Source: Sipunculus nudus (taxonomy: Eukaryota > Annelida > Sipuncula > Golfingiida > Sipunculidae). From it: 64,000 nucleotides of DNA. The notes below the pieces were generated by a model, which was not told the DNA's origin, ran no database searches, and saw nothing but the letters and a program-made list of their open reading frames with translations. Shown in pieces: positions 19,201-64,000 of the stretch. Positions within the stretch are counted from its first letter, which is position 1. Every line of letters starts with the position of its first letter. The stretch is from assembly GCA_026874595.1 (NCBI GenBank), contig CM049322.1, forward strand, positions 47,029,840 to 47,093,839, given 5' to 3'. The translations under genes and the position numbers were made by a program.

Positions 19201-19789
19201 TCAGTGTCTGTGTCTCTATAAAGTTTAGGTCAGTGACTGTGTCTTTATCAGGGAAAGGTCAGTGACTATGTCTAAATAGAGTATAGGTCAGTGACTGTGT
19301 CTCTATAAAGAATAGGTCAGTGACTGTGTCTCCATAAAGTATAGGTCAGTGAATGTGTCTCTATAAAGTATAGGTCAGTGACTGTGTCTGTATCAGGAAA
19401 AGGTCAGTGACTATGTCTAAATAGAGTATAGATCAGTGACTGTGTCTCTATAAAGAATAGGTCAGTGACTGTGTCTCTATAAAGTTTAGGTCAGTGACTG
19501 TGTCTTTATCAGGGAAAGGTCAGTGACTATGTCTAAATAGAGTATAGGTCAGTGACTGTGTCTCCATAAAGTACAGGTTCATGATTGTATTACAGTATTC
19601 TATTGATTTAATTTCTATTTTTCAACGTCACGTATATTAACAAACTATTGTTACATCATTATAATGCCACGAATCGTAAGTTACCAAAATATAATATATA
19701 TTATACATGTTAGATGTACACAGGCCAACTGAATAAATTGTAAGAAAAAATATTAACATTGTTAAAACCAATAATATATATATATATAT

Positions 19790-22800: not shown

Positions 22801-24640
22801 ACTCTGCATGACATAGCAACGTGCCGTTATGTAGTGACTCTCCGTGATGTAGTGACTCACTGTGATGTTGTGACTCTCCGTTATGTCCTGACTCCCCGCG
22901 ACGTAGGGAATCTCCGAGAAGTAATGACCCTTCGTGATGTGGAGATTGTACATAAAGTATTGATTGTGTATGAACTAGTGTTTCCTGATGACGAAGTTTT
23001 TTAACTGTTAGGAGTGACTATGTAACTGATGTAATGTCTTTCCATAACGTACTAACTTACCGTAGTTAAGTGACTCTGCGTGATGTAGTGACTCTCCGTG
23101 ATGTAGTGACTCTCCATTATGAAGTAACTCTCTGTGATGTAGTGACACTTTGTGATTTAGTGACTCTCCGTGATGTAGTGATTCTCCGTGATGCAGTGAC
23201 TCCCCGTGATGCAGTGACTCTCCATCATATTGTGACTTTCATGACGTAGTGACTATGGATGATTTAGTGCTCCAATGATTTAGGGACTCTCAGTGATGTA
23301 GTGACCTTCCGTGATGTGATGAATCTCTGTGACGTTATAAGCCCCCAATGATGCGGTGATTCTACATGAAGTATGTGAATGTATTGCTTGTATATGACCA
23401 AGTGATTCCTTTTAAGGTAATTTTTTCTCTATTTCACAGTGACTAAGTAAAAAATTTAATGACTCTCCATGATGTTCTGACATCCCTTTACTCTCTTTGA
23501 TGTACTGTCTCTAGTTGATGTAGTGACTCATTGTGATGTACATATTGACTCTAGGTGGTAAAGTGACTCCTTATGATGTAGCATAACTCTCCATGATGTA
23601 GTGATTCTCCATGCTGTAGTGACACTCTTTGATGTAGTGACTCTCCGTGATGTAATGACTCTCCAGGATGTAATGACTCTCCGTGACGATATGACCCTCC
23701 ATGATGTGATGAATCTACATAAAGCATTGATTGTATATGACCTAGTGATTCCATTTGACTTAATTATTCTCTATTACGCAGTGACTTAGTGGCTGGTGTC
23801 ATGAGTCTGCATGACATAGCAACGTGCCGTTATGTAGTGACTCTCCGTGATGTAGTGACTCACTGTGATGTTGTGACTCTCCGTTATGTCCTGACTCCCC
23901 GTGATGTAGTGAATCTCCGCGAAGTAATGACCCTTCGTGATGTGGAGATTGTACATAAGTATTGATTGTGTATGAACTAGTGTTTCCTAATGACGTAGGT
24001 TTTTTTTTTTACTATTAAGAGTGACTATGTAACTGATGTAATGTCTTTCCATAACGTACTTACTTACAGTACTGAACGTGAAGTCGAAAATCAGCCGAGG
24101 AGTTCTTTTTCCCCGCGGTCAGCCCCCGTCCAGGGTCAGCGCTTTGCATGCCTAACTGAAAAGCCGTGCCCAACGGCCGTGTATCAACCACAGTGGAGAC
24201 GGACGTTATGGCGTTCATAGGGTTATGACCCGACCATCTGTATGGCTGCATAACAAGACCAGCAGGCACTGTAGACACTGGGTCTTGATTACAGCATTAT
24301 ATTATTGTGTGCTACTGCACTGTAAAAAAATCTCCCGACCTTATTTGACCTGCAAAAACTCTTTGACATAATTACATGCTGCAACGTTTGTGAGTATATC
24401 TTTCACACTGAGTGCAAAGTATATAGCTACTTAATGATAACGTATGATTGGTTTTCCTTATATATTATTAAAACTTCATGTTACTGTCTTTTTCAACCAG
24501 GTGGAGTTGCTGCTTACAATTTCGGCGTCAGTAACGTGCAGTCTTGGGAGCGACTTGACATTGGCACGACCGGAAATGACTATTCTAATGACGTCATGGC
24601 GCGTGCGCAGTATCTGATCGACGAGTACGGATGGGAATAA
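11407..24640 (+). CDS. Goose-type (g-type) lysozyme, secreted, seven exons
   Basis: Exons: 11407-11452, 12321-12467, 12800-12913, 13725-13814, 14145-14269, 20208-20364, 24501-24640. They give 819 bp, 272 aa plus stop, with GT-AG introns and consistent phases. Residues 1-15 are a signal peptide. Residues 16-65 form a small module with eight cysteines (21, 33, 38, 39, 51, 58, 59, 65). A Gly-rich linker (66-73) leads to the GH23-type g-lysozyme domain, which begins QYTCYGD. The domain hydrolyses the MurNAc-GlcNAc bonds of peptidoglycan. By alignment to the family from memory, the general acid is Glu146 (ASRES), and Asp161 (GWGD) and Asp176 match the other conserved acidic residues. The downstream motifs AAYNFG and DIGTT, and the C-terminus, are also typical. 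The start is in good context (CAAAATGG). Introns 5 and 6 are dominated by minisatellites. The likely role is antibacterial defence or digestion of bacteria. Confidence 0.95.
13159..13220. repeat. (TA)n microsatellite in lysozyme intron 3
   Basis: A pure TA run of about 60 bp. Confidence 0.95.
14270..19576. repeat. 29-bp minisatellite filling lysozyme intron 5
   Basis: About 183 tandem copies of a 29-bp unit that begins GTCAGTGACTGTGTCTCTAT. Main variants end in AAAGTATAG, CAGGAAAAG or AAAGAATAG, or read ATGTCTAAATAGAGTATAG. Variants are ordered into a higher-order repeat of about five units (145 bp), clearest at 14900-16500. The array begins exactly at the exon 5 splice donor, whose GTAAGTGACTGTGTC is itself a unit-like start. 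There are no unique spacers, so it is not CRISPR-like. Confidence 0.97.
19577..20207. other. AT-rich remainder of lysozyme intron 5 with (TA)n
   Basis: A (TA)n tract lies at about 19769-19851, followed by AT-rich unique sequence up to the acceptor TTTGTGTTTACAG of exon 6. Confidence 0.8.
20400..24060. repeat. 18-bp minisatellite filling lysozyme intron 6
   Basis: About 200 copies of an 18-bp unit of the form GATGTAGTGACTCTCCGT, with a diverged left edge. Eighteen is a multiple of three, so several frames stay open on both strands and give long repetitive pseudo-proteins. Larger blocks are duplicated: a landmark at 21011 recurs 936 bp (52 units) later, and a block at 22764 recurs about 1.0 kb later at 23764. 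Confidence 0.95.
24091..24182 (+). mobile_element. SINE-1 fragment in lysozyme intron 6
   Basis: Shares with the fuller copy at 44852-45010 the phrases CAGCCGAGG, a CCCCCRYCCAGGGT-type stretch and GCCCAACGGCCGTGT. It has only the body, without the tRNA-like head. Confidence 0.6.
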
Positions 24641-30870: not shown

Positions 30871-31803
30871 ACCAAAGGAAAAACAATATTTACAATTTTT
30901 TTGGAAACATAGGATGCTGGTAATAGGAATGCAGATTACTTCGGGTCGGCTTCAGGGCGGGAAAAAAAAGAGAAACTAGAAATCTAGATTTGTATCCATT
31001 TCAGCAGTTTTCCCCGTTGTCCCAGAAAGCAGTAGTGACAGCCTGCCACCCCAAACGTCGATTTTAGATGAACTGAAGAACGATGGGCCCTATCGGTTTA
31101 TTTACGATGCCTGAGTGTCATATTGTCATGGCTAAGAAAGCAGCAAATCAGGTCATTGCGTCATCATTGGAGAGTGACGGATTACGTCATTGAGGATAAA
31201 CCATTTTTTTTGTTTATATCCATTTATTTTATTAATATTATTGCAAAAATCATACAATACACATGCATTTCATACATTTTTTACACAGTCACATCAAATA
31301 CAATGTATACAATTTATAGCATACTTCCTGGATATTATTTCAATCTTACTTCAAAATTCCAACGCGTGTAATTTGTATATGCAGTATATACAAGAATAAA
31401 AATTTCCCCATGCTTTCCAGTACTTAACCTACGAAAGCTACAGTATGTAATAATTAAAAGATATTGAAGAAAACCTTGTCGATCCATCAAATAACATGCA
31501 GCGTGATGATGAATGTTAATTGATTTTATTTGTAAATCTAGAAATCTGCATTACAAGAAACACATGCCTCCGCCATGAGGGCATTCACGTATTAGACCCA
31601 TATTCCCAAGGTCATTTGTGCATACTTTACTTAACATGTGTGAATATTCATTGATGATGTTCTTGAATCCGTATCATATGTGCCAGGTCCTCGCCTAAAT
31701 CTTATTGTTTCTCAATTGGCCAACTCCTGAAATGCTCTGAAATGCTCATGATAATTTTATTGTTTTTTTATTTTTGTTTTCCTTTATCAGTGACGACTTA
31801 AAG

Positions 31804-34800
31804 ATGCCATCCTACAAGCTTATTTACTTCGATTTCAAGGGTAGGGCGGAAACGGCCCGGATGCTGTTCGCGCTTGCTGGTCAGTCTTACGACGATGTCC
31901 GTCTGGAATATAAAAGTAAAGAATGGAACGAATATAAACCAAGTGAGTACTGGTCCGCATGTCCATGCATCGAACACTGTAATAAAATTAAACCGGTGTC
32001 GGGCCATATCAGAGATTTTTTTCAATTAAGTGTTATTACAAAAAGTTCGATTCGAGAGCAGTAAAATGGGAACATGAACAATAATCCCCGAAGGGGGTTT
32101 AACCTTGCCTGTGGCAGCCTTGGTTGCCTTCAGCTACCAGGTCCAAAACAGTATTAAACGATGCTCCAATGCGCGGCTCACCGGCATACATTCCTCAGAC
32201 TACATCCGTGGAGAAAAAAGACATCGCAAGTTGAACATCTAGGTGTTTTTCACAACATTACAAAGAACATTACTTACCAGAAATGGTTTGAACAAATGCA
32301 ACGCATTAAAAAATGTTGGAGACATTAAACCCCTGCTAGAATGATCATTGCCTTGACGGACACAAAAAAAAAACCTCTAACGATGCGGTCAGGACACTTA
32401 ATAACCTCCCTCCCCCCCCCCCCTGCTTTTTGAATGCATAAGAAATGTCTTGACAGTCCAGTTATGCTTCAGGGTCCAGCTGTAATTAGTCAGCATACAT
32501 AAACTGACCAATTATAAATCGGGCCTATTATCCCCAACACAAGCTGTTCCCTGGCTTTTAACCTATCAGTCCAAATTGATAAAACACTCACTCCCCGAAC
32601 TCCACAGGAGTGGCACCTTTGAAAAGCGTACACATAAACCTAAATAAACATGCGCCAACATAACAATCCAGGAAACACAGCTCTTCCACCTGGGCAGGAT
32701 GTAACATAATTTATCTGGCTTTGCATATTAGAGCCTCACGTCCCCTCCTCAGCCCCAGAATGAAACACGAATCTCAACAAATCTTCATCAATTCAATTTC
32801 ATGTCTGATGACACACTCCTCACACAGCGGTTTACACCGCATTCGTTCAAGATCTCCTTCGTTTTAACCGCTGCTTTATTTGCATTTTTTTCGGGGTCTC
32901 GGCACCAGGGCTGCATTGCACATGGGCAATAATCAGACCCACGAGAGCAGGGTCCATCAGATTTAAAAGTTGGAATTAATTGGGAAATGCGATTGGTCTA
33001 TTCATTGGTCTGTTTACAATTGCTTTCCCTGTGCGAGCCCTTGTGGTGTGACCATAAGAATCTTGCTGTACAAAGCAGCGGTTACAAAGAAGGAGATAAA
33101 GAACCACTGCAGTGTATTACCGCTGCGCAAGGAGTAAAGTCTCATTTTTATTTTTTTTATTTTCATTATTTCTGACACCAGACATAGAAAACCAGAGTTC
33201 CAGGGTACATTCCTATTTGATACATGTAACACTAGTTTATCTTTATCCGAATAGGAGGGACAGTACGCCAACATATCATGAACTTATTATTTTATACTTT
33301 AGAGTGTTTTTTTAAAGTAAAATGACAAGAAAATTCGTTCCCCAATCCTGTCCATTTAAAAAGAAACAAGGAACTGTGCTCTCTTTAATACGCTTACAAA
33401 TATTGTGTATCGTTAGAAGTATTAAATTTGTTTACTTTTTTTTATAAATTAATGGATTTGGCAAAACTAGCCACATTATCATTATTTTTAATATTTATTT
33501 CGTATATTGTTCCTTTATTTCAGAAACTCCATTCGGGTATTTACCTCTTCTGGAGGTGGATGGCGTTGTCATCGCTCAAAGCCATGCCATATCAAGGTAC
33601 CTGGCCAAAACGTTTGGTAAGCTGCGTGGTGATGACTTTAAATTCTATGTGGAATTTTAAACTACATCGATGCCTATATATCTTAGTATGCTTCCTGTCA
33701 TATGTTAATCGATGATTCAGTAAACAAACCGGGCGCGCGTCACTGTCGGACAAATAGTCCAAGGTATATGTAAGCTCATCACATGGTAAAGTGCGTGTAC
33801 TAAATTCGTAACTATGTGGTTCATTGACCTCGGTGTCATAAAGGATCCTTCAATATATGCCTTAAGATTGACAAAATTACAACCCTTTTACTCTCTCCTA
33901 CCCAACCTGCTTATCTTGTTGATGCCATATCTCCCCTTTGTGCTCGTGAAGTGACACACAATTCACACAACCTAAAATATCTAAAATGATAAATGCAAAG
34001 TAAAAGTATGAAAGAATAAAGAAAGAAATAATTAATAGGAAAGCAGGGCATCTTGCGATTTTGATAAGAAACTCGCACCCTAGTGTGAAAACGCTTTAAT
34101 ACTGCCACCGGCATCTGGCTACTGCATGGTCTAACATCTGACATATCACATTTTCTTTCACCAAACCACACAGTATCCCTGTACAAAGCAGCTATTATAT
34201 CTTAAATCCTTATACTCTCATGGTGACAGGTAAAGATTTACTTTTCACTTTCCGAACCTTCTTCAGGTTTTGCGGGTAAAACCCCTCTGGAGGCGGCCCG
34301 TGCTGATATGATCGTTGACACAATGGAAGATCTCGTGCAACCACTAACCGAAATAATCGTGTGTCAGGATGAAGGTAAAAAGGTGGGTTTTCTGAAATAG
34401 TAATTTTCACATTCACCCGGATCAATCTGTCATTTGGTGTATGTCGGACCAGGTAGAATTAGAATAAAATATTGAAAGCATGTAAACGTAATAACCTCTT
34501 TTTTGTCTCAGCGCGTAATGAATTCTAAAAAGCAAACAAGCAAACAAAGAGACAGAAAGGCATACATGTTGCTAAAACGTGTAAACAGTCAAGCGTACAG
34601 TGACATAGTTACCACAGGATTTACAAACAAACCAATAGACCAATGAACTCTTAATGTTCCACCACCTTAGGCTGAAATTAAGAAGAAATACACGACCGAA
34701 ACACTCCCAACCATGTTGGCCAGTCTTGAAAAGGTATACTGCTTGAACAACAATGGATCCGACTTCCTTGTCGGTGATGGGGTACGTATTTTGCCATACT

Positions 34801-45853: not shown

Positions 45854-45957
45854 AATGTCATAACTGTCACTGAATGGATTTCATGATAAGTTTCATGATA
45901 ATTTTATTGTTTTTTTTTTTTTTGTTTTTGTTTTCCTTTATCAGTGACGACTTCAAG

Positions 45958-48899
45958 ATGCCATCTTACAAGCTTATTTACTTCGATTTCAAAGGTCGGG
46001 CGGAAACTGCCCGGATGCTGTTCGCGCTGGCTGGTCAGCCTTACGACGATGTCCGCTTAGAATTAGAAGCTGATGAATGGAAAGAATATAAACCAAGTGA
46101 GTACTGGTCTGCATGCCCATGCATCGAACAGTGTACTGAAATTAAACCGGTGTCGGGCCATATCAGAGAGTTTTTTTCTAATTAAGTTTTTTTTACAAAA
46201 GTTCGACTCGACAGCAGTAAAATGGGAACATGAACAATAATCCCCGAAGGGGTTTTTACCTTGCCTGTGGCAGGCTGGGTTGCCTTTGTCTACCAGGTCC
46301 AAAACAGCATTAAACAATGCTACAATGTGCGGCTCACCGGCATATATTCCTCAGACTATATACGTGGAGAAAAAAGACATAACATTTGAACATAACAGGT
46401 GTTTTTCACAACATTACAAAAGAACAGTACTTACAAGAAATGGTTTGAGCAAATGCATCCCAGTAAAAAAAGTGGTGAACATTAAAACCCCCCTAGAATG
46501 ATCATTGCCTTGACGGAAACAAAAACACATCTAACAATGCCTCTAAGGAAGCTCGATGGGTCGGGACACTCAATAAACCCCCCCCCCCCCCCCGCTTTTT
46601 GAATGAATAAGAAATGACAGTCCTTTTATGCTTCAGCTATAAGTATTCAGCATACATAAACTGCTCATTTATAAATCGGACATATTATTTACAACACATT
46701 TGCTATTCCCTGAATTTTAACCGATCAGTAAAAATCTATGAAATACTGTCTCATAATTTATCTGGCTTTAGTCATTAGAGCCACACGTCCCTTCCTCAGC
46801 CCAAGCTTGAAACACGAATCTCAACATAACTTCATAAAATTTAATTTCATGTCTGATGACACAAACCTCACACAGCGGTTTACACCGTATTCGTTCAAGA
46901 TCTCCTTCGTTTTAACCGCTGCTTTATTTGCCAGGGCTGCATGGCACATAGGCAATAATCAGACCCACAAGAGCAGGGTCCAGCGGATTTAAAAGTCGGA
47001 ATTAGATGCAAAATGCGATACCACGCTTTCATTGGTCTGATTAAAATTGCTTGTCCTGTGCGAGCCCTGGTGGTGAGACCCAAAGCATCTTGCCATACAA
47101 AGCAGCGGTTAAAAAGAAGGAGATATAGAACGACTACAGTGTATAGCAGCTTTGTGAGGAGTGTAGTCTGATGACCTCAATTATTTCAGACACCAGGCAT
47201 AGAAATCCAGGGTTGTAGATAACATTCTTATTTTGATACATGTAACACAAGTTTATCTTTATCCAATTACAAGGGACAGTACAACAACCTGTCATGGGCT
47301 TATTATGTTATATTTTAGGGATATTTACTTGGCAAAATGACAAGTAATTTCGTTCGTCAATCCTGTTCATATTAAAAAAACAAGGAACTGTGCTTTTTTA
47401 ATACGCTTACATATAATGTGCATCGTTAGATGTATTATATTGGTTTGCTTTATATTAATTAAGGGCATAACTAGCAACAATATCATTATTGTTAATATTT
47501 ACTTCGTATATTGTACCTTTATTTCAGAAACTCCATTCGGGTATTTACCCCTGCTGGAGGTAGATGGCGTTGCCATCGCTCAAAGCCATGCTATATCAAG
47601 GTACCTGGCCAAAACGTTTGGTAAGCAGTGTGGTGATGACTTTAAATTCTATGTGGAAATTTAAACTAAATCGATGCCTAATCATCTTAGTGTTATGCAT
47701 TCCTGTCATACGTAAATAGATGATTCGGTAAACAGACCGGTCGCGCGTCACTGTCGGTTAAATAGTCCGAGGTTTATGTAAGCTCATCACATATTAAGTT
47801 CGTAACTGAGTGTTTCATTGACCTCGGTGTCATATAGGATACTTCTAACATATCCCTTAAGATTGTACTCTCTCCTACCCAACCTGCTAATGTTGTAGAT
47901 GCCATATCTTCCCTTTGTTCTCTTGAAGTAACATAAAATTCATACAGTCTGAGATATCTGAAATAAATATAAATGCAAAGTAAAAGTATGAAAGAAAAAG
48001 GAAAGAAATAATTAATGGGAAGGCAGGGCATCTTGCGATTTTGATAAGAAACTTGCAACCTGCGGTGAGAGCGCTTTGATACTGCCACCGCCATTTAGCT
48101 ACTGCATGGTCTTACTTCTGACATATCGCATTTTCTTTCACCGAACCCCACAGTATCCCTGTACAAAGCAGCTATTATATCTTAAATGCTTCTACCCTTA
48201 TGGTGACAGGTAAAGATTTACTTTTCATTTTCCGAACCTTTATAGGTTTTGCGGGTAAAACCCCTCTGGAGGCGGCCCGTGCTGATATGATCGCGGATAC
48301 ACTGCAAGATCTTGTGCAACCACTAGGCGAAATATTCGTGTGTCAAGATGAAGGGAAAATAGTGGGTATTCTGAAATAGGAATTATCATATTCATCCAGA
48401 AAAATATCTGCCATTTAGGATCAGGTAGAATTGAAATAAAAGACTGATAAAATATGGAAGGCATGTATAAATAACTCTTTCATTTCCAAGAGCGTAATGA
48501 ACTCTGAAAAGCAAACAGGCAAACAGAGAGACAGAAGAGCATATATGTTGCTAAAAAGTGTCAACAGTCAAGCGAACACAGTGACCTTTAGTTACCGCAG
48601 GATTACAAACAGACTAATGAAATCTTAACGTTTATCTCCAATAGGCGGAAATTAAAAAGAAATACACGACCGAAACACTCCCCACCACGCTGGCCAGTCT
48701 GGAGAAGGTTTTCTGCATGAACAACAATGGATCCGGCTTCCTTGTCGGTGATGGGGTGCGTATATTTCCATACTGCTTTTATAATGATTTAATCTGAAAG
48801 CTTTGATGCTACAGATTCAGATACCCCGTAAATGAATTCAATCAAGGGTACATCTGAAAAGGAACGAGGATATGCGGGCCTATGATATCACAGTTAGAC

Positions 48900-49828: not shown

Positions 49829-50111
49829 TGTTGTGGATTCCGATGTGAAACAGATTTATTAATTCATTAATTAGCGTCAATTATTATCATGTCAATGTGC
49901 ACCAGAAATATTATCCATATTTAAATGTAAGTTTTTGTTTTGGTCAGGCTATGTTTCTATTGCCGGAACCTTCATCTAATAAATCACTTCCGGAAATGTC
50001 TGAGAGCCGTTGAAGTCGTTTTGAGGAACGTGGGTGTTTGTGAATCTGTTTTGAGGCAGAATAAATGGAGGACGAGCTATCTCGAAGTGGACAGAAGGAG
50101 ACCTCGCTACA
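49829..50111 (+). repeat. 5' LTR of the BEL/Pao element
   Basis: Homologous to 55808-56087, with differences concentrated in its last 30 bp. It contains AATAAATGG near the 3' end, a possible polyadenylation signal. The shared start is TGTTGTGGATTCCGATGT. Confidence 0.9.
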
Positions 50112-50129
50112 TGGTGCTAAGACTCGGGA
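50112..50129 (+). promoter_or_regulatory. Primer-binding site candidate of the BEL/Pao element
   Basis: TGGTGCTAAGACTCGGG follows the LTR end immediately and begins with TGG, the complement of a tRNA CCA end. The tRNA species is not identified. Confidence 0.55.
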
Positions 50130-50239
50130 AAGGCAAGAATATTGGTTTATTTAGTCAAATTGCCTTTTTGTAAAACTAGCTCCTCCATTGCTTCGTGGTA
50201 GTGGGCGATAATGTGTGAGTTTCGTCGTCCCCGCAACAC

Positions 50240-51045
50240 ACAGTGTTATTGCGTTTGTAGTCGTCCGTGCGCCTTGTTGTGGTAGTTATAGGCTACATAT
50301 TTGGTTTGAGACTGTAGTCGTCCGTGCGCCTTGCTGTGATAGGTGGAGGCTACATATTTGGTTTGAGACCATAGTCGTCCGTGCGCCTGGTTATGATAGG
50401 CGGAGGCTACATATTTGGTTTGAGAATGTAGTCGTCCGTGCGCCTTGTTGTGGTAGTTGGAGACTACATATTTGGTTTGAGACTGTAGTCGTCCGTGCGC
50501 CTTGCTGTGATAGGTGGAGGCTACATATGTGTTTTGAGACTGTAGTCGTCCGTGCGCCTTCTTGTGATAGGTGGAGGCTACATATGTGTTTTGAGACTGT
50601 AGTCGTCCGTGCGCCTTCTTGTGATATGTGGAGGCTACATATTTGGTTTGAGACTGTAGTCGTCCGTGCCCCTTGCTGTGATAGGTGGAGGCTACATATG
50701 TGTTTTGAGACTGTAGTCGTCCGTGCGCCTTCTTGTGATAGGTTGAGGCTACATATGTGTTTTGAGACTGTAGTCGTCCGTGCGCCTTGTTGTGATAGGT
50801 GGAGGCTACATATTTGGGTTGAAACTGTAGTCGTCCGTGCGCCTTGTTGTGATAGGTGGAGGCTGCATATTTGGTATGAGACTGTAGTCGGCCCTGCGCC
50901 TTGTTGTGATAGGTGGAGGCTACATATTTGATTTGAGACTGTAGTCGTCCGTGCGCCTTGTTGTGGTAGTTGGAGGCTACATATTTGGTTTCGGACTGGA
51001 GTCGTCCGTGCGCCAAATTGTGATAGGTGGAGGCTACTTATTCAG
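50240..51045. repeat. 57-bp minisatellite in the leader of the BEL/Pao element
   Basis: About 14 tandem copies with a 57-bp period containing GTAGTCGTCCGTGCGCCTTG and GGTGGAGGCTACATAT. Fifty-seven is 19 codons, so one frame on each strand stays open (238 and 256 codons). It lies between the primer site and the first gag ATG at 51348. Confidence 0.95.
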
Positions 51046-51347
51046 TCAGAGACTCAAGTTGTGTAAGTACCACTTGTGTGCGTCATACACACTCCAGAAC
51101 TGAGAGTTGTTTTTTTTTTTTTTTTTTTTTGTCACACTTTTGGAACTTTGGTTAAATTGGCTACCGTGTGATTGTCACCACAGTATCAGAAATATATTAG
51201 AACATAAGTGTGTTGAGGAACTATTCAAGGCGAGTAGTTCTAGTACATGACCTTTTGTTGTAACATTGCGTGTCGTTTAATGCACACTGTGTAGGCGCAG
51301 TGTGAGGATACACGTGAACGTTATGTTTTCCTTGTGACAAATCAACC

Positions 51348-52668
51348 ATGTCGCTGGACGTGAAAAGAGTGCGTGCAGGTGCCCGTGGATGGGCTAACCG
51401 TGCGTCCAAAAATCTGCAACAGCTTGTCGACAAAGCGGACATTGATATTCACTATTTAAGGGATGCTGTTGAGGAGCTGGATAAACGCTTGGATACACTG
51501 GACGATGCTTAGTTTAATGTTGAAATGCAGTTATCCGAGGAGGAACCGTCCGTGGATATTGACGAGGCTGCTGATTTTAGGGAAAAGTGCCGAATGCTGC
51601 GAATTCTAGCTATGAAAATGATATGTTCCCAGGAGGGATGCTGCGAATTCTAGCTATGAAAATGATATGTTCCCAGGAGGGATGCTGCGAATTCTAGCTA
51701 TGAAAATGATATGTTCCCAGGAGGGATGCTGCGAATTCTAGCTATGAAAATGATATGTTCCCAGGAGGGATGCTGCGAATTCTAGCTATGAAAATGATAT
51801 GTTCCCAGGAGTCTACAGTAGCAAGTGATGGTAATTTATCATAGATGTCTCAGTCAGTTGACGCAAAACTGCCAAACTCCCTACTTTCAGTGGTGAACCA
51901 ACTGAATGGCCTTTGTTTTAGGACCAGTTTAAGGATATTGTACATGATTCTGGATTGTCTGATGTCGCTAAGTTTTCCTAAGTACTCTCTTTACTCAAGG
52001 GTGAGGTTAAGCTGGCTGTTCAAGGACTATCACTTACTGCTAAGCATTTTCAGATAGCTTTTGACCTGCTCAAGAAAAGGTATGGTAAAAGGTGTTGAAT
52101 ATAAATGTTAGTTCAAGATCATCTGTCAGTAATCTTTGGAGGTAACAAGACATGTTACTGAGTAATATTCGAAGCTAAGAGACACTTGATGTCAAGGGTG
52201 AGCAGTATGGGGTGATTTTGACTCCTCTTATTTTATCGCGTTTACCACAAGACTTACGTTTGGAATGGGTCAGACAAGGTGAATGTCATGAGTCAGAAAT
52301 GCAGTTTTTACTTGACTTCCTTCGTGGCGAAATCTAGAGCCGAGAGCAGTATCAGACATTTCGTGTTACGACGTTAGACTCTGAGAAAAAAGCCTTCTCA
52401 CAACCTTCCTACTGGTGCTGCCCTGCACTCGTCTTCACTGACCTCAGTAGGTGGCGTCACGTGTAAATGCTCCCCTTGTCATAAATCCCATGCCACTGAG
52501 CGCTGCTGGGATCTTAAAAGGTTGTCCCCCGAGGAACGCAAGGACAAAATACAACAAGCTGGACTCTGTTTTAGGTGTATTGTAAAGGGTCACTCTGCTA
52601 AAGAGTGTTTGAAGAAATGTGCTAAATGTAATGGGAGGCATCACCTTTTATTGTGTGGAATACAAGTC
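51348..52668 (+). pseudogene. Gag remnant of the BEL/Pao element
   Basis: A good ATG at 51348 opens a frame starting MSLDVKRVRAG that stops at 51510-51512. Reading on in frame still gives protein-like acidic sequence until a 44-bp tandem repeat (51590-51811) breaks the frame. Later pieces include LLKKRYGKR near 52080. Two zinc-knuckle motifs follow, CSPCHKSHATERCW at about 52470 and LCFRCIVKGHSAKEC with KCNGRHHLLLC at about 52565-52660, as in BEL/Pao Gag. Multiple disruptions mean no complete Gag can be made. Confidence 0.8.
51590..51811. repeat. 44-bp tandem repeat inside the gag remnant
   Basis: Five near-identical copies with starts 44 bp apart (GAATTC at 51601, 51645, 51689, 51733, 51777). 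Forty-four is not divisible by three, so the expansion shifts the reading frame. The near identity shows it is recent. Confidence 0.95.
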
Positions 52669-52829
52669 ACTAAGAAGCCGGAATCTCCTGTACGTTCTCA
52701 ATCAAAATCTAATGCACCAATCCTTGACCTTGATCAAAATACTCAGCAGCTCAGAGCAGCTAGTAATGTTAATATGTCCCACAATTTCCTTGAAAACGTG
52801 TTTTTTCAACAGACGACCTGTGGACTTCT

Positions 52830-53270
52830 TTCTGGCACTAAAGGGATCCATGAGGCTACAGTGTTATTTGACACGGGTTCTAATAGGTCATATGTGTCTT
52901 CCGCCTTAATTGAAAAAATTGGCCCGGAATGGGTTTCTACTGCCTGGGTCTCTTATTGCCCCTTTGGTTCTAAAAAAATCCTGGTGAATCAAACTTAAGG
53001 AACATATTCAAGTTAAACCTTAAAGATGTTAATGGCTCTTTTGTTTCAGTTTTGGCCACAGGGATACCAAGCATTTGTTCTCCTATATACTGCCCCCAGG
53101 TCACAGATGAGATACTACAAACCTTTGGTCAATTTGCATTTAAGACCAAGAAAAATAGTCGAATTAATGTAGATATTTTACTTGGGTTAGATGTGTATTG
53201 GAAGCTAGTAATTGCAAACACAAGATACATTAGGCCAGGTTTAGCTGCACAGGAGACTGTGTTTTGGTAG
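52830..53270 (+). pseudogene. Retropepsin-like protease remnant of the BEL/Pao element
   Basis: The active-site motif VLFDTGSNRSYVSS is present, with the catalytic Asp in DTGS. The frame breaks near 52998 and resumes at about 53000-53270, where DILLGLDVYWKLV resembles the second conserved protease segment (ILLG.D.YW) of BEL/Pao elements. Confidence 0.75.
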
Positions 53271-54230
53271 ATTCTTTCTGGCACTGGGATGAATCCATAA
53301 GCAAGGTACCTGCTGTATCAGGCTCAGGGCATCAATTGTTATGCTTAAGTAATGTCTCTGATAAAACATTGCATAAATTCTGGGAGCTTGAATCTGTTGG
53401 CATTACAGATGACATGTCTAAAGATACTGATCATGTACTTTCAGATTTCATACGGCAGGTAAACTTTTCAGATGGCCGTTATCAGGTTCCATTGCCATGG
53501 AAATCAGCTGAGGTCAAAGGTAAAGTCATGAATAATGCGAAATTAGCAAGGAAACGCCTCGACAGTTTGTGTAAGCAGTTAGCCAAAACCCCTGATTTAG
53601 AACATCGCTATCAGGAAGTATTTACAGACATGTAGAACTCTGGTATCATTGAGGAAATTCCTGCAGGTGAGTTGGTTACCCCTCATCCTACATTTTGCTT
53701 ACCCCATAGACCTGCCCTAAGAGTAGATAGTTAACCACTAAAGTTAGACCTGTCTTTGAAGCATCTGCCGAAGGATATAATGGCATATCTCTGAACGATT
53801 GTATAGAAACAGGACCTGGCTTGATACCCAACTTGGTCAGCATTCATATTCGTTTTAGGAGATGGAAGGTAGCCATTACTGCAGATAATACAAAGGCTTT
53901 TCTCCAGATCCGGGTTACGAACTGTGACCAAGATGTGGAAAGATTCCTTTTAAAAGTTTATAATTCGGAAAGAATCATGAGGTTAGTCAGAGTCTTATTC
54001 GGGAATCGTGCCAGTCCTTTCCTCTTAAATGCAACTGCCATGTTTCACCTAAAGACTGTTCCAGATACACGTGTTGTACATGAGCTGAAAGATAACATGT
54101 ATGTTGATGACTGGCTGTCAGGGGCCGATGACGATTTGGAAGCCTGTAGCATGGTTGTGGAAGCGTCCAGCATCATGGAAAAGCTGATATGTCATTTTCA
54201 AAATGGTGTTCTAACAGTGAAGTAGTTTCT
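53271..54230 (+). pseudogene. Reverse transcriptase remnant of the BEL/Pao element
   Basis: An N-terminal linker (QVNFSDGRYQVPLPWK) is followed by a stop at 53633-53635 and another near 53731. The palm pieces then read ITADNTKAFLQI (first catalytic Asp), FGNRASPFLLNATA and YVDDWLSGADD at about 54100, the two Asp of the active site. The spacing is nearly full length but the frame is interrupted. Confidence 0.85.
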
Positions 54231-54712
54231 GAAATGTTGAACACAAAATTTAAGGGCAAAAGCCTAGATACTAGTTCCCTAAAGGTTTTGGGTCTTCAGT
54301 GGATAGCAGGAAGAGATAGCTTTTCTTTTGACGAAATCAAAATTCCTGAATATATTCTAGTACAAAGAGAGTAGTCTTGAGTTTTGTGTCAAGGGTATTT
54401 GACCCTTCGGGGTTCATTGCTCCCTTTGTTATGCAAGGGAAATGTTTTTTCCAAGATATCTGGAGAATAGGATTCCTCTCGGATGATGAACGTCCTGATA
54501 ACATGAAGAAACAATTCCTTCAATGGATTAAGGACCTAGAAAAGCTAAAGTCCTGGTATATTCCTAGAACATACTCATATTAGGGTTGGAAAGACAGTCA
54601 TGATATCACTCTTAATGCTTTCGGGGATGCGAGTGAGAAAGCTTTTGGGGCATGTGTGTACATTATAGCCAAGTCAAGGCTCTTTCCCCTTTGCAGTGAC
54701 TGGTTTTGACCA
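54231..54712 (+). pseudogene. RNase H-region remnant of the BEL/Pao element
   Basis: Pieces VLGLQW, SRVFDPSGFIAPFV and AFGDASEKAFGACVYI are typical of the connection and start of RNase H in BEL/Pao. The frame stops at about 54708, and the rest of RNase H and the N-terminal part of integrase are missing, so an internal deletion joins this to the integrase core. Confidence 0.75.
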
Positions 54713-55620
54713 CGCAAGACCTTTATATTGTGCAGATCACCCGAGACACAAGTTTTATGTTATTATTCACGTTTGGAGTGGTGAGGGCTCTGCATATTGA
54801 GCTGGTGAATTCACTGTCATCAGACGATAGCACTTTAGCTTTATGGCGATTTATTTCACGGCGTGGATTGCCTTCTGTATTGTATTCAGATAATGCCAGA
54901 TCATTCAAAGCAGCTTATTGTAAAATGATAAGTATATATTGGACACTTAGTCCCAAGTGGAAATACATAGTTTCTAGGGCCCCCTGGTGGGGAGGATGGT
55001 GGGAGAGATTGGTAAGAACAATCAAGTTAGCACTAAGAAAGACACTAGGTACAAGGGCGCTTACTAGATGCGAATTAGAAACAACTCTACAAGAAGTTGA
55101 AGCAAGCATCATTTCTAGGCCCTTGACATTTGCAGGTGATGATGTATCAGCTACAAATCAGGACTTCACGTTTCCAGCCTGCTGAGGTAAGTAATGAGGA
55201 TTTATAAGACGACATAGACTTGTTAATTATGGACAAAGCTAGGAAGCAGTTATTAGATCATTTCTGGTTGTTATGGAGAAATAACTATATTAGACAGCTA
55301 CCTCCCTGTATGGGATCCGAGGCGTAAGGTAAGTTGAAACAGGGTCCTGTGGTGCTTTTCCGGAATGCGGACAGGTTTCGATCACAGTGGCCTTTAGGCG
55401 TGGTGAATGAGGTATTTCCTGGTAAAGATGAAAATATGAGAGCTGTTAGTGTTAAAACAGCCAAAGGAATGTTCATTAGACCCATTCTGTTGCTACACAA
55501 GTTAGAGGTCACTGCTCAGCCGGGTGAAATAACACCACAGCCTCATGAATCATCCAAATCCCAGTCCCAGGAATCAGTCAGAACAACCCACCTGATCAGT
55601 CCCAGGGTATAAGTGATTCT
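54713..55620 (+). pseudogene. Integrase remnant of the BEL/Pao element
   Basis: The core begins inside the DDE domain: VVRALHIELVNSLSSD, then LPSVLYSDNARSFKAA (second Asp) and APWWGGWWERLVRTIK, leading to the expected Glu region. The first catalytic Asp and zinc-binding N-terminus are missing. A frameshift near 55185 separates the C-terminal segment with GPVVLFRNADRFRSQWPLG and VKTAKGMFIRPILLLHKLE. Confidence 0.8.
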
Positions 55621-55807
55621 GTTGATCCCATCTCCATGACAAGATATGGCAGACAAATTAAACCTGTCCAAAGGCTGGGCTTTTAAGGTCCATCTTTCAA
55701 CTCCATATTATATTGTTTTATATGTATATTTAATGAAAGTTATGCTCTGGTTACTTCAATAATGCTCATATTAGTGTTGGAGTGTAACCCTCCAACAGGT
55801 GGGAGAA

Positions 55808-56087
55808 TGTTGTGGATTCCGATGTAAAACAGGTTAATTAATTCATTAATTAGCGTCAAGTATTATCACGTCAATGTGCACCAGTAATATTATCCATGTT
55901 TAGATGTAAGTTTTTGTTTAGGTCACGCTCAGTTTCTATTGCCGGAACCTTGCAACTAATAAATCACTTCCGGAAACGTCTGAGAGCCGTTGAAGTCGTT
56001 TTGAGGAACGTCTCTGTTTGTGAATCTGTTTTGAGGCAGAATAAATGGAGGACGAGCTAGTAGTGGACAATAACGAGAACCTCTACA
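55808..56087 (+). repeat. 3' LTR of the BEL/Pao element
   Basis: Matches the 5' LTR. It is preceded by a polypurine tract (GGTGGGAGAA) and followed by CTTAT, the near-copy of CTGAT before the 5' LTR. Confidence 0.9.
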
Positions 56088-56723
56088 CTTATACGTTATG
56101 CGTGCTGTACCATCCTATCCTTTGAACCATGTAGTGATAACCGACTCGTGTCAAGTTTTTAGGGACTCGGTTTTCGACTGGAGGGTCCTGGAATCGGACT
56201 TTCACTCGAGCTCGGAGGTAAAGACTCGATAAAACAGACTGAGTTCATATCGAGTCCAACAAAAAAAACTGTGTCACATATTATAAAGACTATTACACAT
56301 GTGCGAATAACTAACAGAATAATACAAATTAAAAATACTCTATATACCAAGCTTTGCTCAGCATCGGGAGCTATTAATATTATTAATCATTATTAATAAA
56401 CAAACGCGGAAACTGCTTTAAAACCATATGATATTCTGAAATTTTCATTTTAAGGCTATCTGTATTGGATTTAGACTTAGGTTCAAAAAGACTCGGACTC
56501 GAAAGAGGTTGACACAGACTTGTACTTCAAGGACTCGGAATTGAACTCAAGTGGCCTGAATTCTGACTTGCCAGACTCGGATGGTGTGGACTTGACTTCA
56601 TCACTGAATGAAACACAAAAACTGCAAACAAATATACACAGGTTATACTGTTAACCTAATCTATAATCTGAGACATATAATTGATATAGTTGACTTTTGT
56701 TTATTAACCTTTTAAGACATATA

Positions 56724-57136
56724 TGTTACGTAGACAAATTATTCAGGGGAAAATACTGGGCCGGTCCGGGATTCGAACTCATGTCGGTGACACACGTTCC
56801 AACCGCTTCGCTAGCTTCACTAGCTAGACAGTTCGGTCCGCTTTTATGTCACCCCGTAACACACCCCCTATAAAGAGCGTTCTGCAATCAGAGCAAGACT
56901 AATTATCCCAGGAGTCACACTTTGGTGAGCCTATTCCCTGGGCCACAAAGTTAACCGTCACATTGGACGAGCCCCCGTTTTGTTACGAAGACCAATTATT
57001 CAGGGGAAAATACTGGGCTGATCCGGAATTCGAACCCATGTCGGCGGCGCACATCTCCGGCGTTCCAACCGCTTCGCTAGTAAAGCAAGCTTCACTAGCG
57101 AGACAGTTCGGTCCTCTTTTATGTCACCCCGTAACA
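56724..57136 (-). mobile_element. Miniature LTR retroelement (TRIM-like) with tRNA-like boxes in its LTRs
   Basis: Two related terminal units, 56724-56861 (138 bp) and 56981-57136 (156 bp), start TGTTACG and end GTAACA. They flank a 119-bp interior. Read on the minus strand, the interior starts 3 nt after the LTR with CGGGGGCTCGTCC, 12 of 13 matching the classic tRNA-Pro primer site. It ends with the purine-rich AGGGGGTG before the second LTR. Each LTR has an ACATAAAAG TATA-like box and a perfect pol III A box, TAGCGAAGCGG. The B box is AGTTCGAATCC or GGTTCGAATTC. Flanks TATA and TGTA look like a 4-bp target duplication, and unit 1 has the empty site at about 36733. It has no coding capacity. 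Confidence 0.7.
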
Positions 57137-57370
57137 TGTAAGATCAAGTGTTGCAGTATGATTGACCGGATATAGAACGTATAAACATATATTTTATATA
57201 CAGTTCACGGTGCTTCCGTCGTGTGATAACGACGATACACTTATGTTACGGTCTTCCTTATTGTTCATGAAATCACTTCCCACAGGGCTTTTAGATTTCC
57301 GATTAGTTGTATTGTTGTTAAAACTCTGTATTTTAATGATTGCTTTTTGTTCTTTACAAGGAAAATAAAG

Positions 57371-57612
57371 TATTAGAGGCCTTGACTGCTGAGTTGTAAA
57401 ACGCTCGGTCTTCTACGCTGGCGACCCGGTTTTGCTTCCCGGCGTGGCATTGACAGTGGGTTGAAGTGGGCCGTCCCAGGTCTGCGGTTTTCTCCGGGAC
57501 TATCGTTTTTTTCTCCACCTTTACCGACTTCCAACCGTCAACTTAAGGGCCAAGGAGAGTGCCTCGTATTAGTTATTATAGCTGGATGTACAATCCATGT
57601 AAAATAAATAAA
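57371..57612 (+). mobile_element. SINE-2 copy at the end of unit 2
   Basis: Homologous and syntenic to 36962-37200, with a degraded B box (CGGTTTTGCTTCC) and the same AAATAAATAAAG tail. Confidence 0.65.
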
Positions 57613-58700
57613 GTTTATATATTAAATAAAGCAGTTAATCTATCAATCAGTTAATCAGCAGCTATTTGGATGAACTGAAAACATTGATCGGAACAAATAA
57701 ACAATGCAGTAGCAAATGAATTAAATCGGATCGTACACATTTATTGTCCTAAAGTCGAACAACATTTCTTTTTTTTTTCAAATTCAGATTCAGAAAATTC
57801 TGCTCACACCTGCTGACATATTTTCTTATTTTCTATTTGTGCAAGATATGAGCCATATTATTTATTTGCATATTTATTACATGATGAAAACGTGTGCAAT
57901 ATTTGATCATGATAGATGTAACGGTTGTTGAAATATGTGGTAGCCGTCGGGGCGTCAATACATGGTTAATTCTAGCAAAAGGGGATTTCTCATTTAACTA
58001 TTATATATATGAGCTTGGTTTGGAATTAATCTTATCTGAAAACATAATACATTGTATCAAGCACCTATACTAAGCTGTGCTATGTTTAAAATGGGTCACA
58101 TATATATACTTCAGAAAAATGAGACATTTCAATATTAATTGAGTCCCCACCCAACCTGTAAAATTCGATTTACCCCTCTCCGTCTGAGTAACAGAGAATG
58201 ACCGGTTGATAGTGGACGTTGCACCACTGCATTTATTAGTTCATAGATTGAGCAAATATACCGAGCGAAACTAACAAATAACCGCCTTCATGTGCAAAAC
58301 ACCAGATTACAGCTTTGCACGTGATTACGACTCGGGATTGTGAGAAACATTAAATAATATTTTATATAAATTCCAGAATGTATTTCTGAGCTACATACAG
58401 TTGCAGCCACCGTAATAGACAAAAAAAAGATAATGCGTGATGAGAACTGACTTAACTGACACGGGAGGGATTAGATAAGAACAAAAATGACACCTTATTA
58501 ATAAATAACTCTAAGTACCGTGACTCAGCGTTTTCCTCTAAGATCGAGAGAGTAGGGGTACATGTGAGTGTGTGCATGCGTGCATGTGTGTCCACGTTTG
58601 TGTGGTTAAGTACATATATGGGATTTGTGCAAACGTACAAACACTGTCTTGGCTAAATACTTGTTATTACAATTAATTGAATAATACGATAGGTTTTGGG

Positions 58701-58735
58701 ATTCTGTAACATATATTATATATATGTTACAGAAT
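58701..58735. repeat. 35-bp near-perfect palindrome
   Basis: ATTCTGTAACATATAT and its reverse complement meet around a 3-nt centre. Units 1 and 2 have only one arm-like phrase (near 27297 and 40505), so the palindrome arose in unit 3. Confidence 0.85.
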
Positions 58736-59634
58736 TAAAGATACTACGCAAGAAGGACGCGGTCTTGACACCCCCCCCCCAAACTCTTTAACATCCGCAG
58801 CAACCTTCATTATAATTTTACGGTGTGGACCCTCCCCCCCCCCCCCCCCTTCCGGACATACGGACCATTTCTTTATGGTTTTGTCATTAATCGTCCTTGG
58901 TGGGACCCCTCATTGGTCTAAATAGGTTTGATGATGAGGTGACAAACATTTTACTTGGAACAAACAATTTACTTGCTTATAGTTATACGTAATTTATATG
59001 TAAGGCAGCATATTTCGTACAACATATTTCAGCCAATGAGTAATACTATATGCTAGAAACTGAAAACGACGAACTCAAATATATCAAGGCAGCTTTATAA
59101 TATGCAACACATCTGCCATTTATATTTTATATATACTATATGCCAAACACAGGTAATTGTTGATTATTGAAGGTTCAAATGTTATTAATGTTCTTTTTTT
59201 TTCAATAAAACCATTGTGTTTATTGTTTAACATTCCATATAGTTTTACTCTTGTTTTAATGTACTCTGAATTGTATATGATTGTTACCTGTTGTCAACAA
59301 GGGAAACAGAAATCATGCAACCAATCGATAGTTTTTAGCATTTAGCATTTGTAACATTTACCTGGCATTTTATTAACAAGAGAGTAAACAAAGATGGCGT
59401 ACACAGAATCTAATTTTTGCCTGTTAATCCTATCATCAATAATTGTGCAAGCTGAACAGTGAACGATGGACAGCTGACGCTAGACTCCTCGCCCTCGCAT
59501 AAGTTCATAAAATAGGTTAAAAATATTGATCGAAACAATCAGACAATACACAAGCAAATTAATAATCACGATAGATCACTCTTCCTCTGACAGGGGTTAC
59601 AAACATGAACTTTAGAATTAATACAAGTGAAGCC

Positions 59635-62108: not shown

Positions 62109-62198
62109 ACTAGAACTTCATAACTATCACAGAATTGATTCCATGATAAGTTTCATGATTTTTGTTTTTTTTCTTTCCTTATCAGTGACGACTTCAAG

Positions 62199-64000
62199 AT
62201 GCCATCCTACAAGCTAATTTACTTCGATTTAAAAGGTCGGGGGGAAACTGCCCGGATGCTGTTTGCGCTTGCTGGTCAGCCTTACGACGATGTCCGCCTG
62301 GACTATGAAGCTAATGAATGGAAAGAATATAAACCAAGTGAGTGAATGTCCGCATGTCCAAGCATCGAACACTGTACTGAAAGTAAACCAGTGTCAGGTC
62401 ATATCAGATATCTTCTTTATTTTATTACTAAATGTTTGGTTCGAAAGTAGTAAAATTGGAACATGACCAATAATACCTGAAGGGGTTTAACCTTGCCTGT
62501 GCCAGCCTGGGTGGCTACAAATAAGAACACCTCCCCCCCCCCCCCCGGATGTAATATCTCTCATTGTATCTATTTATTTTCCCAGCTTTTTATTATTCGT
62601 ATCTTTTTCATATATCTTTTTTATTCCCTTTCATTAAAGTTATCCACGGTTCATTATGAGCAGCCGTGGGATATGTTTCATTAATCATGAAAGCATTCAA
62701 ATTTACTTTACTGAGAGAGGCTTCTCGTCATTACAGCAACCTTTTTCATATAGTATATTACGTAATAATAATAACAGGACATGCACATCCCCGTATAAAA
62801 TACATGCACAATTCATGAAATATATTTTTTTTCTTAAAACCCATTAACCGCTTACCCCGAATTACCGCCCTCTTGTTCACGAATTTATGGATTCGCCATT
62901 GTGCTACCAGATATAAACAGTATTGAAACATTCACCCAAACTGGTTTGATCAGAAGCAACGCAGGGAAAAAGAAAGATGTCGGAGACATAAAACCCCTGA
63001 TGATCTTCAATCTGACCGTTCCATGGTAATACAGATCTAGGGTAGGATGTAACATAATTTATCTGGCTTTGCACATTGAGCCACAGGTTCCCTCTTAAGT
63101 ACCAGTCTGAAACACCATTTTAAACATAACTTCATAAATTCAGTTTCATATCAGATGACACACTCCTAACGCAGTGGTTTACCCTGCATTCGTTCAAGAT
63201 CTCCTTCGTTTTAACCGCTGCTTAATTTGCAATTATTTCGGGGTCTCGACACCAGGGATGCATTGCACATGCGCAATAATCAGATAAACGAGAACAGGGT
63301 CTCGCGGATTTAAAAGTTGGAATTAGATGCAAAATGCGATACCACGCTTTCACTTGTCTGATTATAATTGCTTGTCCTGTGCGAGCCCTGGTGGTGAGTT
63401 CCGAAGAATCTTGCTGTACAAAGCAGCGGTTACAAAAAAGGAGATAAAGAACGACTGTTGTGTATAACCGCTGCGCAAGGAGTAAAGTCTCATTTTGTTT
63501 ATTTTCATTATTTCTGACACAAGACATAGAAAACCAGAATTCTAGGGTACATTCTTATTTGATACATGTAACACTAGTTTATTCCTAATAAGAGGGACAG
63601 TACACCAACAGATCATGGACTTAATACTGTATACTGTAGGGAGCTTTTTTCGTAAAATGACAAGTAAATTCGATCACCAAATACTGTTCATATTAGAAAA
63701 AAATACAAGGAACTGGGCTCTCTTTAATAAGCTTACAAATAATTTAGTTTAAACATATTTATTTTAGTTGGATTATACAAATAGCACAAAGTGCTTATGA
63801 ACGTACTCTCCAATGCCCTTCGTTTAAAGGTTATATAGGTTTACTTATTTTTTTTTTTTAAATTTACGGATATGGGAAAACTAGCAACAATGTCAATGTT
63901 TTTTATAGTTACTTCGTACATTGTACCTTTATTTCAGAAACTCCGTTCGGGCAGTTGCCCTTGCTGGAGGTAGATGGCGTTGTCATCGCTCAAAGCCATG
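62199..64000 (+). CDS. Sigma-class glutathione S-transferase, copy 3 (partial, runs off the window)
   Basis: Coding exon 1 is 62199-62337 (139 bp, same length as copies 1 and 2). Exon 2 starts at 63938 after TTTATTTCAG and is cut by the window end. Exon 1 begins MPSYKLIYFDLKGRGETAR with Tyr8 kept. Two changes from copies 1 and 2 are Phe to Leu in FDFKG and Ala to Gly in GRAE. The end of exon 1 reads LDYEANEWKEY. Exon 2 starts TPFGQLPLLEVDG, with Gln where copies 1 and 2 have Tyr, which is the more usual sigma-class residue from memory. Both visible exons are open and splice sites are intact, so nothing suggests a pseudogene. Confidence 0.9.

Follow-up and report, generated by a model that had tools for sequence, protein, structure and literature searches.

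The described systems closest to the locus studied here are the TRIMs with tRNA-derived LTRs, which were named Helenus by Kojima 2024 (PMC10886601) and which form, together with Cassandra and Ajax, the group TRIMp3. According to that paper, Helenus occurs in animals, in fungi and in one plant; pteriomorph bivalves account for 51 of the families, and Pteriomorphia is the only molluscan group in its table. Animal Helenus elements are described there with 4-bp target duplications, tRNA-Pro is among the primers of the bivalve families, and a Gypsy element, Gypsy-13_CGi, shares its primer with Helenus (PMC10886601). Helenus LTRs that would encode a proper tRNA are few, according to the same text (PMC10886601).

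The window analysed in the present study is a stretch of 64 kb, and its minus strand carries a 413-bp element that was compared with these systems. The locus is very probably the degenerate copy of a Helenus-type, non-autonomous LTR retrotransposon, a TRIM whose LTRs include a tRNA-derived segment.

Structure of the element

The first-pass annotation had described a 413-bp minus-strand element with TG...CA LTRs, a tRNA-Pro-like primer site and a purine tract, and its coordinates and orientation proved to be exact (Table 1). With two LTRs, a short non-coding interior and a length below 1000 bp, the element has the make-up of a TRIM. The inverted termini TGTTACG/CGTAACA are perfect over 7 nt in both LTRs. 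The alignment of the LTR pair revealed 127 identical bases out of 138, with 11 substitutions and two 9-nt gaps, which corresponds to an identity of 0.92 when the gaps are excluded. The interior starts with AAAC, and GGGGGCTCGTCC follows from interior base 5, i.e. 4 nt after the LTR. This 12-nt run is identical to the complement of the 3' terminus of tRNA-Pro, taken from published zebrafish and human sequences, and the agreement over the full 18-mer is 13/18. The 12-mer GGGGGCTCGTCC occurs once in the 64-kb window; ungapped 13/18 matches to the 18-mer were obtained at three other places in it, so the primer-binding site (PBS) was assigned from the 12-nt run together with its location. The interior ends with AGGGGGTG, in which the purine tract is worn down to AGGGGG. 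The tetramers flanking this copy, TACA and TATA, are equal at three of four bases, for which about 6% is expected by chance. No further copies were found in the 64-kb window, where the best BLAST matches of element parts outside the element had E values of at least 0.09.

Table 1. Positions of the element and its parts within the window
Feature	Position	Strand	Description
Whole element	57136..56724	-	413 bp: LTR 156 nt, interior 119 nt, LTR 138 nt
5' LTR	56981..57136	-	156 nt, ends TGTTACG...CGTAACA
TATA-like box, 5' LTR	57116..57123	-	CATAAAAG; possible upstream promoter element
A box, 5' LTR	57069..57079	-	TAGCGAAGCGG, perfect
B box, 5' LTR	57026..57036	-	one mismatch; begins 43 nt past A box start
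TTTT after B box, 5' LTR	57007..57010	-	possible pol III stop
Interior	56862..56980	-	119 nt; taken as non-coding
Primer-binding site	56965..56976	-	12 nt, complement of tRNA-Pro 3' end
Purine tract	56864..56869	-	AGGGGG, then TG before 3' LTR
3' LTR	56724..56861	-	138 nt; without two 9-nt pieces found in 5' LTR
TATA-like box, 3' LTR	56841-56848	-	CATAAAAG; possible upstream promoter element
A box, 3' LTR	56803..56813	-	TAGCGAAGCGG, perfect
B box, 3' LTR	56769..56779	-	one mismatch; begins 34 nt past A box start
TTTT after B box, 3' LTR	56750-56753	-	possible pol III stop

Upstream, on the plus strand at 49829-56087, lies a second element, whose two LTRs measure about 280 nt each and which we take to be BEL/Pao-like. 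It contains broken gag-pol-like frames (52378-55185) and an internal 57-nt tandem repeat (50256-51042), and the Pfam search gave a sub-threshold reverse transcriptase match only. As a partner of the 413-bp element it was rejected on the grounds that its LTR ends differ and that, by eye, no tRNA-Pro site follows its 5' LTR. Elsewhere in the window, two long minisatellites (14273-19578 with 29-nt units, 20393-23943 with 18-nt units) together occupy the interval between two pieces resembling exons of goose-type lysozyme (13997-14311 and 24326-24637). Three similar frames resembling a first GST exon (31741-32064, 45874-46185 and 62139-62345) suggest a putative tandem cluster of GST genes. The GST identity was tested for the copy at 31741 using a query joined from two exons, of which one only had GST_N above the cut-off, and the frames at 45874 and 62139 showed weak or no Pfam GST match. 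The lysozyme pieces and the GST exons point to an animal host, possibly a mollusc.

The family in the host genome

Searches of the host genome, 153 contigs with a total of 1.43 Gb, were made with the whole element, the interior and the LTR. The whole-element search listed 61 matches, the best 40 of 3271 first-look candidates being scored; the interior search listed 41, namely the window copy and 40 further (best 40 of 1454 candidates scored), and the LTR search 42 (best 40 of 2623 candidates scored). The PBS motif string GGGGGCTCGTCCNNNGTGAC was present at 512 exact sites, while the reversed-pattern control had 0. Four samples were analysed. The whole-element-picked sample comprised 39 stretches at the places of the whole-element matches, the window copy being left out, and the interior-picked sample comprised 34 stretches, which represent 36 of the 41 interior matches, the others being four places sampled before and the window copy. 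The PBS-picked sample, blind to the LTRs, comprised 80 stretches for 81 of the 512 motif sites on three contigs (C1-C3), again with places sampled before omitted; the LTR-picked sample consisted of 20 LTR matches absent from the earlier samples.

The host genome holds a large old family of such elements. LTR or interior sequence was present at the motif in all 80 PBS-picked stretches, among which 52 were LTR-interior-LTR copies, 16 had tandem units and 12 were cut-off; the genome search for the LTRs and for this arrangement, proposed along with the original description, has revealed a large family so built. An LTR-to-LTR chain could be built for 72 of the 73 loci in the similarity-picked samples, and 52 of these chains had both outer ends complete, and 36 of the 80 PBS-picked loci qualified as complete copies. 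The median length of the 5' LTR was 156 nt in both the whole-element-picked and the interior-picked sample. The tRNA-Pro PBS was exact in 36 and carried one mismatch in 46 of 94 family interiors. The commonest purine tract of the family, AGAGGGGGTG, was found in 50 of these 94 interiors, and in 25 of 90 in the PBS-picked sample. Tandem arrays were observed in 14 of 72 chains of the similarity-picked samples and in the 16 of 80 PBS-picked stretches. The arrays at L039, L040, L041, L045 and L123 consist of four to six LTRs with shared interiors; L040 and L041 have like layouts and lie on one contig about 70 kb apart in opposite orientation.

The flanks of the complete copies were compared for target duplications. 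Perfect 4-bp duplications were found in 37 of the 52 similarity-picked copies (mispaired control 142/2652) and in 22 of the 36 PBS-picked copies (control 79/1260), leaving 15/52 and 14/36 copies without one. Identical flanks at 3, 5 and 6 bp were seen in 1, 0 and 8 of the 52 and in 0, 0 and 4 of the 36, and the 6-bp matches seem to stem from AT repeats. ATAT accounted for 11 of the 37 perfect duplications in the similarity-picked samples. Target duplications also bordered the arrays: of the 11 complete arrays in the PBS-picked sample, 8 had one at the outer ends. A family interior borders 12 of the 20 LTR-picked matches, as judged over 15 nt on each side, and is missing next to the other 8; one of these 8, L177, has a purine-tract-like sequence upstream and may be misfiled. 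Complete LTRs with no adjoining interior showed a perfect 4-bp duplication in 2 of 6 cases (control 1/30), so that solo LTRs seem to exist, the sample being small.

These data bear on the SINE alternatives. A tRNA-derived SINE, having no LTRs and no PBS and inserting by target priming, is contradicted by the LTRs, the PBS and the 4-bp duplications; the duplications and the structure of the family together identify it as a TRIM and not as a SINE. Two tandem tRNA-derived SINEs might resemble LTRs by chance, and the tRNA-like units do stand in direct repeat, as do those of the common arrays. This is very improbable and is refuted in the samples by the constant, unrelated 119-nt interior with its PBS and purine tract, by the 4-bp duplications at the outer ends, arrays included, by the perfect inverted ends and by the further LTR matches that adjoin an interior. 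From established LTR biology, the LTR parts and the 4-bp duplications point to reverse transcription and integrase-type insertion by the enzymes of another element.

The divergence of the LTRs was used to judge age. In the PBS-picked sample the median LTR identity within a copy was 0.872 (25 complete two-LTR copies). No copy with identical LTRs was present in the samples, the best reaching 0.955 (PBS-picked) and 0.97 (similarity-picked). The family is old, the window copy is old and probably dead, and there is no reason to regard it as active. The LTR identity within elements was close to that between elements (0.907 vs 0.887 whole-element-picked, 0.874 vs 0.854 interior-picked), and the nearest LTR of a 5' LTR was its own 3' LTR in just 6 of 59 cases. 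Such near-equal values are expected for an old, star-like family, and no odd mechanism was read into the LTR comparisons. At eight columns with common variants, the mismatch was 0.221 within and 0.489 between elements (n=59; 0 of 2000 permutations as low), and for 18 interior-picked copies with perfect duplications it was 0.309 within and 0.463 between (3 of 2000 permutations). Three copies, L061, L070 and L084, have perfect 4-bp duplications, yet their 5' and 3' LTRs differ at linked variant columns; their unlike LTR haplotypes are perhaps due to gene conversion.

The internal deletions were at first sight unevenly distributed between the two LTRs, occurring in 19/29 last LTRs vs 0/29 first LTRs in the whole-element-picked sample and in 11/29 vs 3/29 in the interior-picked sample (Fisher p 0.03). 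A true bias of this kind would suggest that the LTRs were not made identical at insertion. It was gone in the PBS-picked sample (first 14/52, last 12/52, p 0.82); since it is absent when LTRs are ignored in sampling, the bias was regarded as an artefact of picking copies that resemble the window copy and was discarded.

tRNA likeness of the LTRs and transcription

The A and B boxes were scored against what we take to be their consensus. The B boxes GGTTCGAATTC and AGTTCGAATCC have one mismatch each with the consensus GGTTCGANTCC. The perfect A box, the near-perfect B box and the spacings of 43 and 34 nt given in the first-pass annotation were all confirmed and lie beyond chance in shuffles: the box pair was absent from all 40 dinucleotide-shuffled versions of the 64-kb window, searched on both strands, and on the sense strand it arose in one of 5000 shuffled versions of the element. 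The imperfect B boxes of the window copy might be taken to mean box-like strings arising by chance within an unrelated repeat, a reading that is extremely improbable and is refuted by these shuffles and by the conservation in the family reported below. The viral contigs scanned with the A/B pattern gave 0 matches.

The LTRs were also aligned with four human tRNAs, with 1000 shuffles for each sequence. The longer LTR scored 60 on the sense strand, equalled by none of its 1000 shuffles, and the shorter LTR scored 54, equalled by 16 of 1000; the control alignments of the interior and the two antisense LTR strands were equalled by 596, 143 and 463 of 1000 shuffles. The best alignment was with tRNA-His and pairs LTR bases 51-123 with tRNA bases 1-75. 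A true tRNA gene was rejected, as neither ARAGORN (window and 21 family loci) nor the Rfam models called any tRNA. The Rfam models were applied to the region 55000-59000 and to 20 family loci, and the sole tRNA-clan match there was a tmRNA fragment in L070 with 11.8 bits, far under the cut-off. The predicted RNA fold of the LTRs, with structures judged by eye, is built around a hairpin including the A box and is not a cloverleaf (z -2.45 and -2.80), and the interior RNA showed no unusual folding (z 0.44).

The conservation of the promoter parts was analysed in 127 LTRs of at least 140 nt, out of 164 LTR pieces of the PBS-picked sample. With at most one mismatch, the A box was present in 110, the B box in 104 and both in 88 of the 127, and the starts of the boxes were 43 nt apart in 73 of these 88; the shuffled LTRs gave 7 A boxes, 1 B box, no pair and no 43-nt spacing. 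The motif ATAAAA near the LTR start was kept in 99/127 family LTRs vs 0/127 shuffled ones, and TTTT after the B box in 100/127 vs 23/127. For all 164 pieces the counts were 123 (A box), 115 (B box), 93 (both), 78 (43-nt spacing), 118 (ATAAAA) and 109 (TTTT). The result is in accordance with the interior-picked LTRs, which had the A box in 57/70, the B box in 53/70 and both in 44/70, with the 43-nt spacing in 39/44. The 43-nt spacing, as in the 5' LTR of the window copy, is the family state, so the 34-nt spacing of its 3' LTR is most simply explained by a deletion in this copy. What would have spoken against the original description, units occurring mostly in SINE-like form with no duplications or primer site, or a family with no boxes, was not seen in the samples.

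The TATA-like box, the A box, the B box and the TTTT follow one another as in a pol III unit. On the sense strand of the element, TTTT runs occur only at the two positions of Table 1, one per LTR. Because the A and B boxes are kept at tRNA spacing, the RNA of the element would most likely be made by RNA polymerase III. A TTTT right after the B box of the 5' LTR would, however, end many pol III transcripts early, so that under pol III this first TTTT would need read-through. The expected hindrance of read-through favours the main rival explanation, by which the element is an ordinary pol II TRIM, with CATAAAAG as the TATA-like box from which transcription starts and with the tRNA-like piece as the fossil of a SINE insertion. 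It also gains from the place of CATAAAAG near the start of both LTRs and from the retention of ATAAAA in the family. The pol II explanation is possible but somewhat unlikely, as most sampled LTRs retain the A and B boxes with starts 43 nt apart; moreover, the eight common variant columns avoid the boxes save for the free N of the B box, which by our estimate would happen by chance about one time in three.

Transcription by pol III remains the preferred reading for the source copies. In these, the A and B boxes of the 5' LTR would most likely have served RNA polymerase III as promoter, and the RNA would then have been reverse transcribed, with tRNA-Pro as the putative primer, and integrated by the enzymes of an autonomous, probably Gypsy, element. 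A more detailed layout is speculative and, taken as a whole, unlikely: the LTR would be a pol III unit, transcription would begin shortly before the A box, the R region would be the tRNA-like piece between this start and the TTTT, the full-length RNA would arise by read-through to the TTTT of the second LTR, and the host may lie outside the groups with known Helenus. The order of these parts suggests a testable layout for pol III copying of such elements.

Comparison with known systems

Among the 20 papers listed, out of 206 matching a literature search on such elements, the name Helenus was present only in Kojima 2024 (PMC10886601), and for TRIMp3 no relevant source besides it was found; searching LTR sequence strings gave unrelated papers only. 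By the description in that paper, the element shares with Helenus a tRNA segment with A and B boxes in the LTRs, a tRNA PBS, a purine tract and 4-bp duplications, and its 413 bp fall within the Helenus length range of 311-1263 bp (PMC10886601). High copy number in some Helenus families and tandem arrays in a zebrafish family are described in the same text (PMC10886601). The likeness to the bivalve Helenus families is one of published description and not of Repbase consensus sequences.

A second comparison is with biv-TRIM (Satovic et al. 2019, PMC6934838), a miniature LTR element of bivalves that also forms tandem arrays. Compared by description, its LTRs of 202-218 bp and interior of 77-80 bp differ from the 156 and 119 here, and the paper reports no clear PBS and a PPT that is mostly GGGGAGA, whereas the present element has a clear tRNA-Pro PBS (PMC6934838).

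The parallel to the plant Cassandra elements, drawn in the first-pass annotation, holds at the level of the family and is already made in Kojima 2024 (PMC10886601). Both are TRIMs whose LTRs include a small-RNA segment resembling a pol III promoter; this segment is 5S rRNA in Cassandra and tRNA here, and pol III transcription has been shown for Cassandra, as stated in that paper (PMC10886601), while here it is suggested by the boxes. The 4-bp duplications in most complete sampled copies and the large copy number support the view that TRIMs with tRNA-like LTRs are true LTR retroelements and that they can make up an old repeat family abundant in an animal genome. The element is a further member of Helenus and TRIMp3, a kind published in 2024, and its family is possibly already catalogued.
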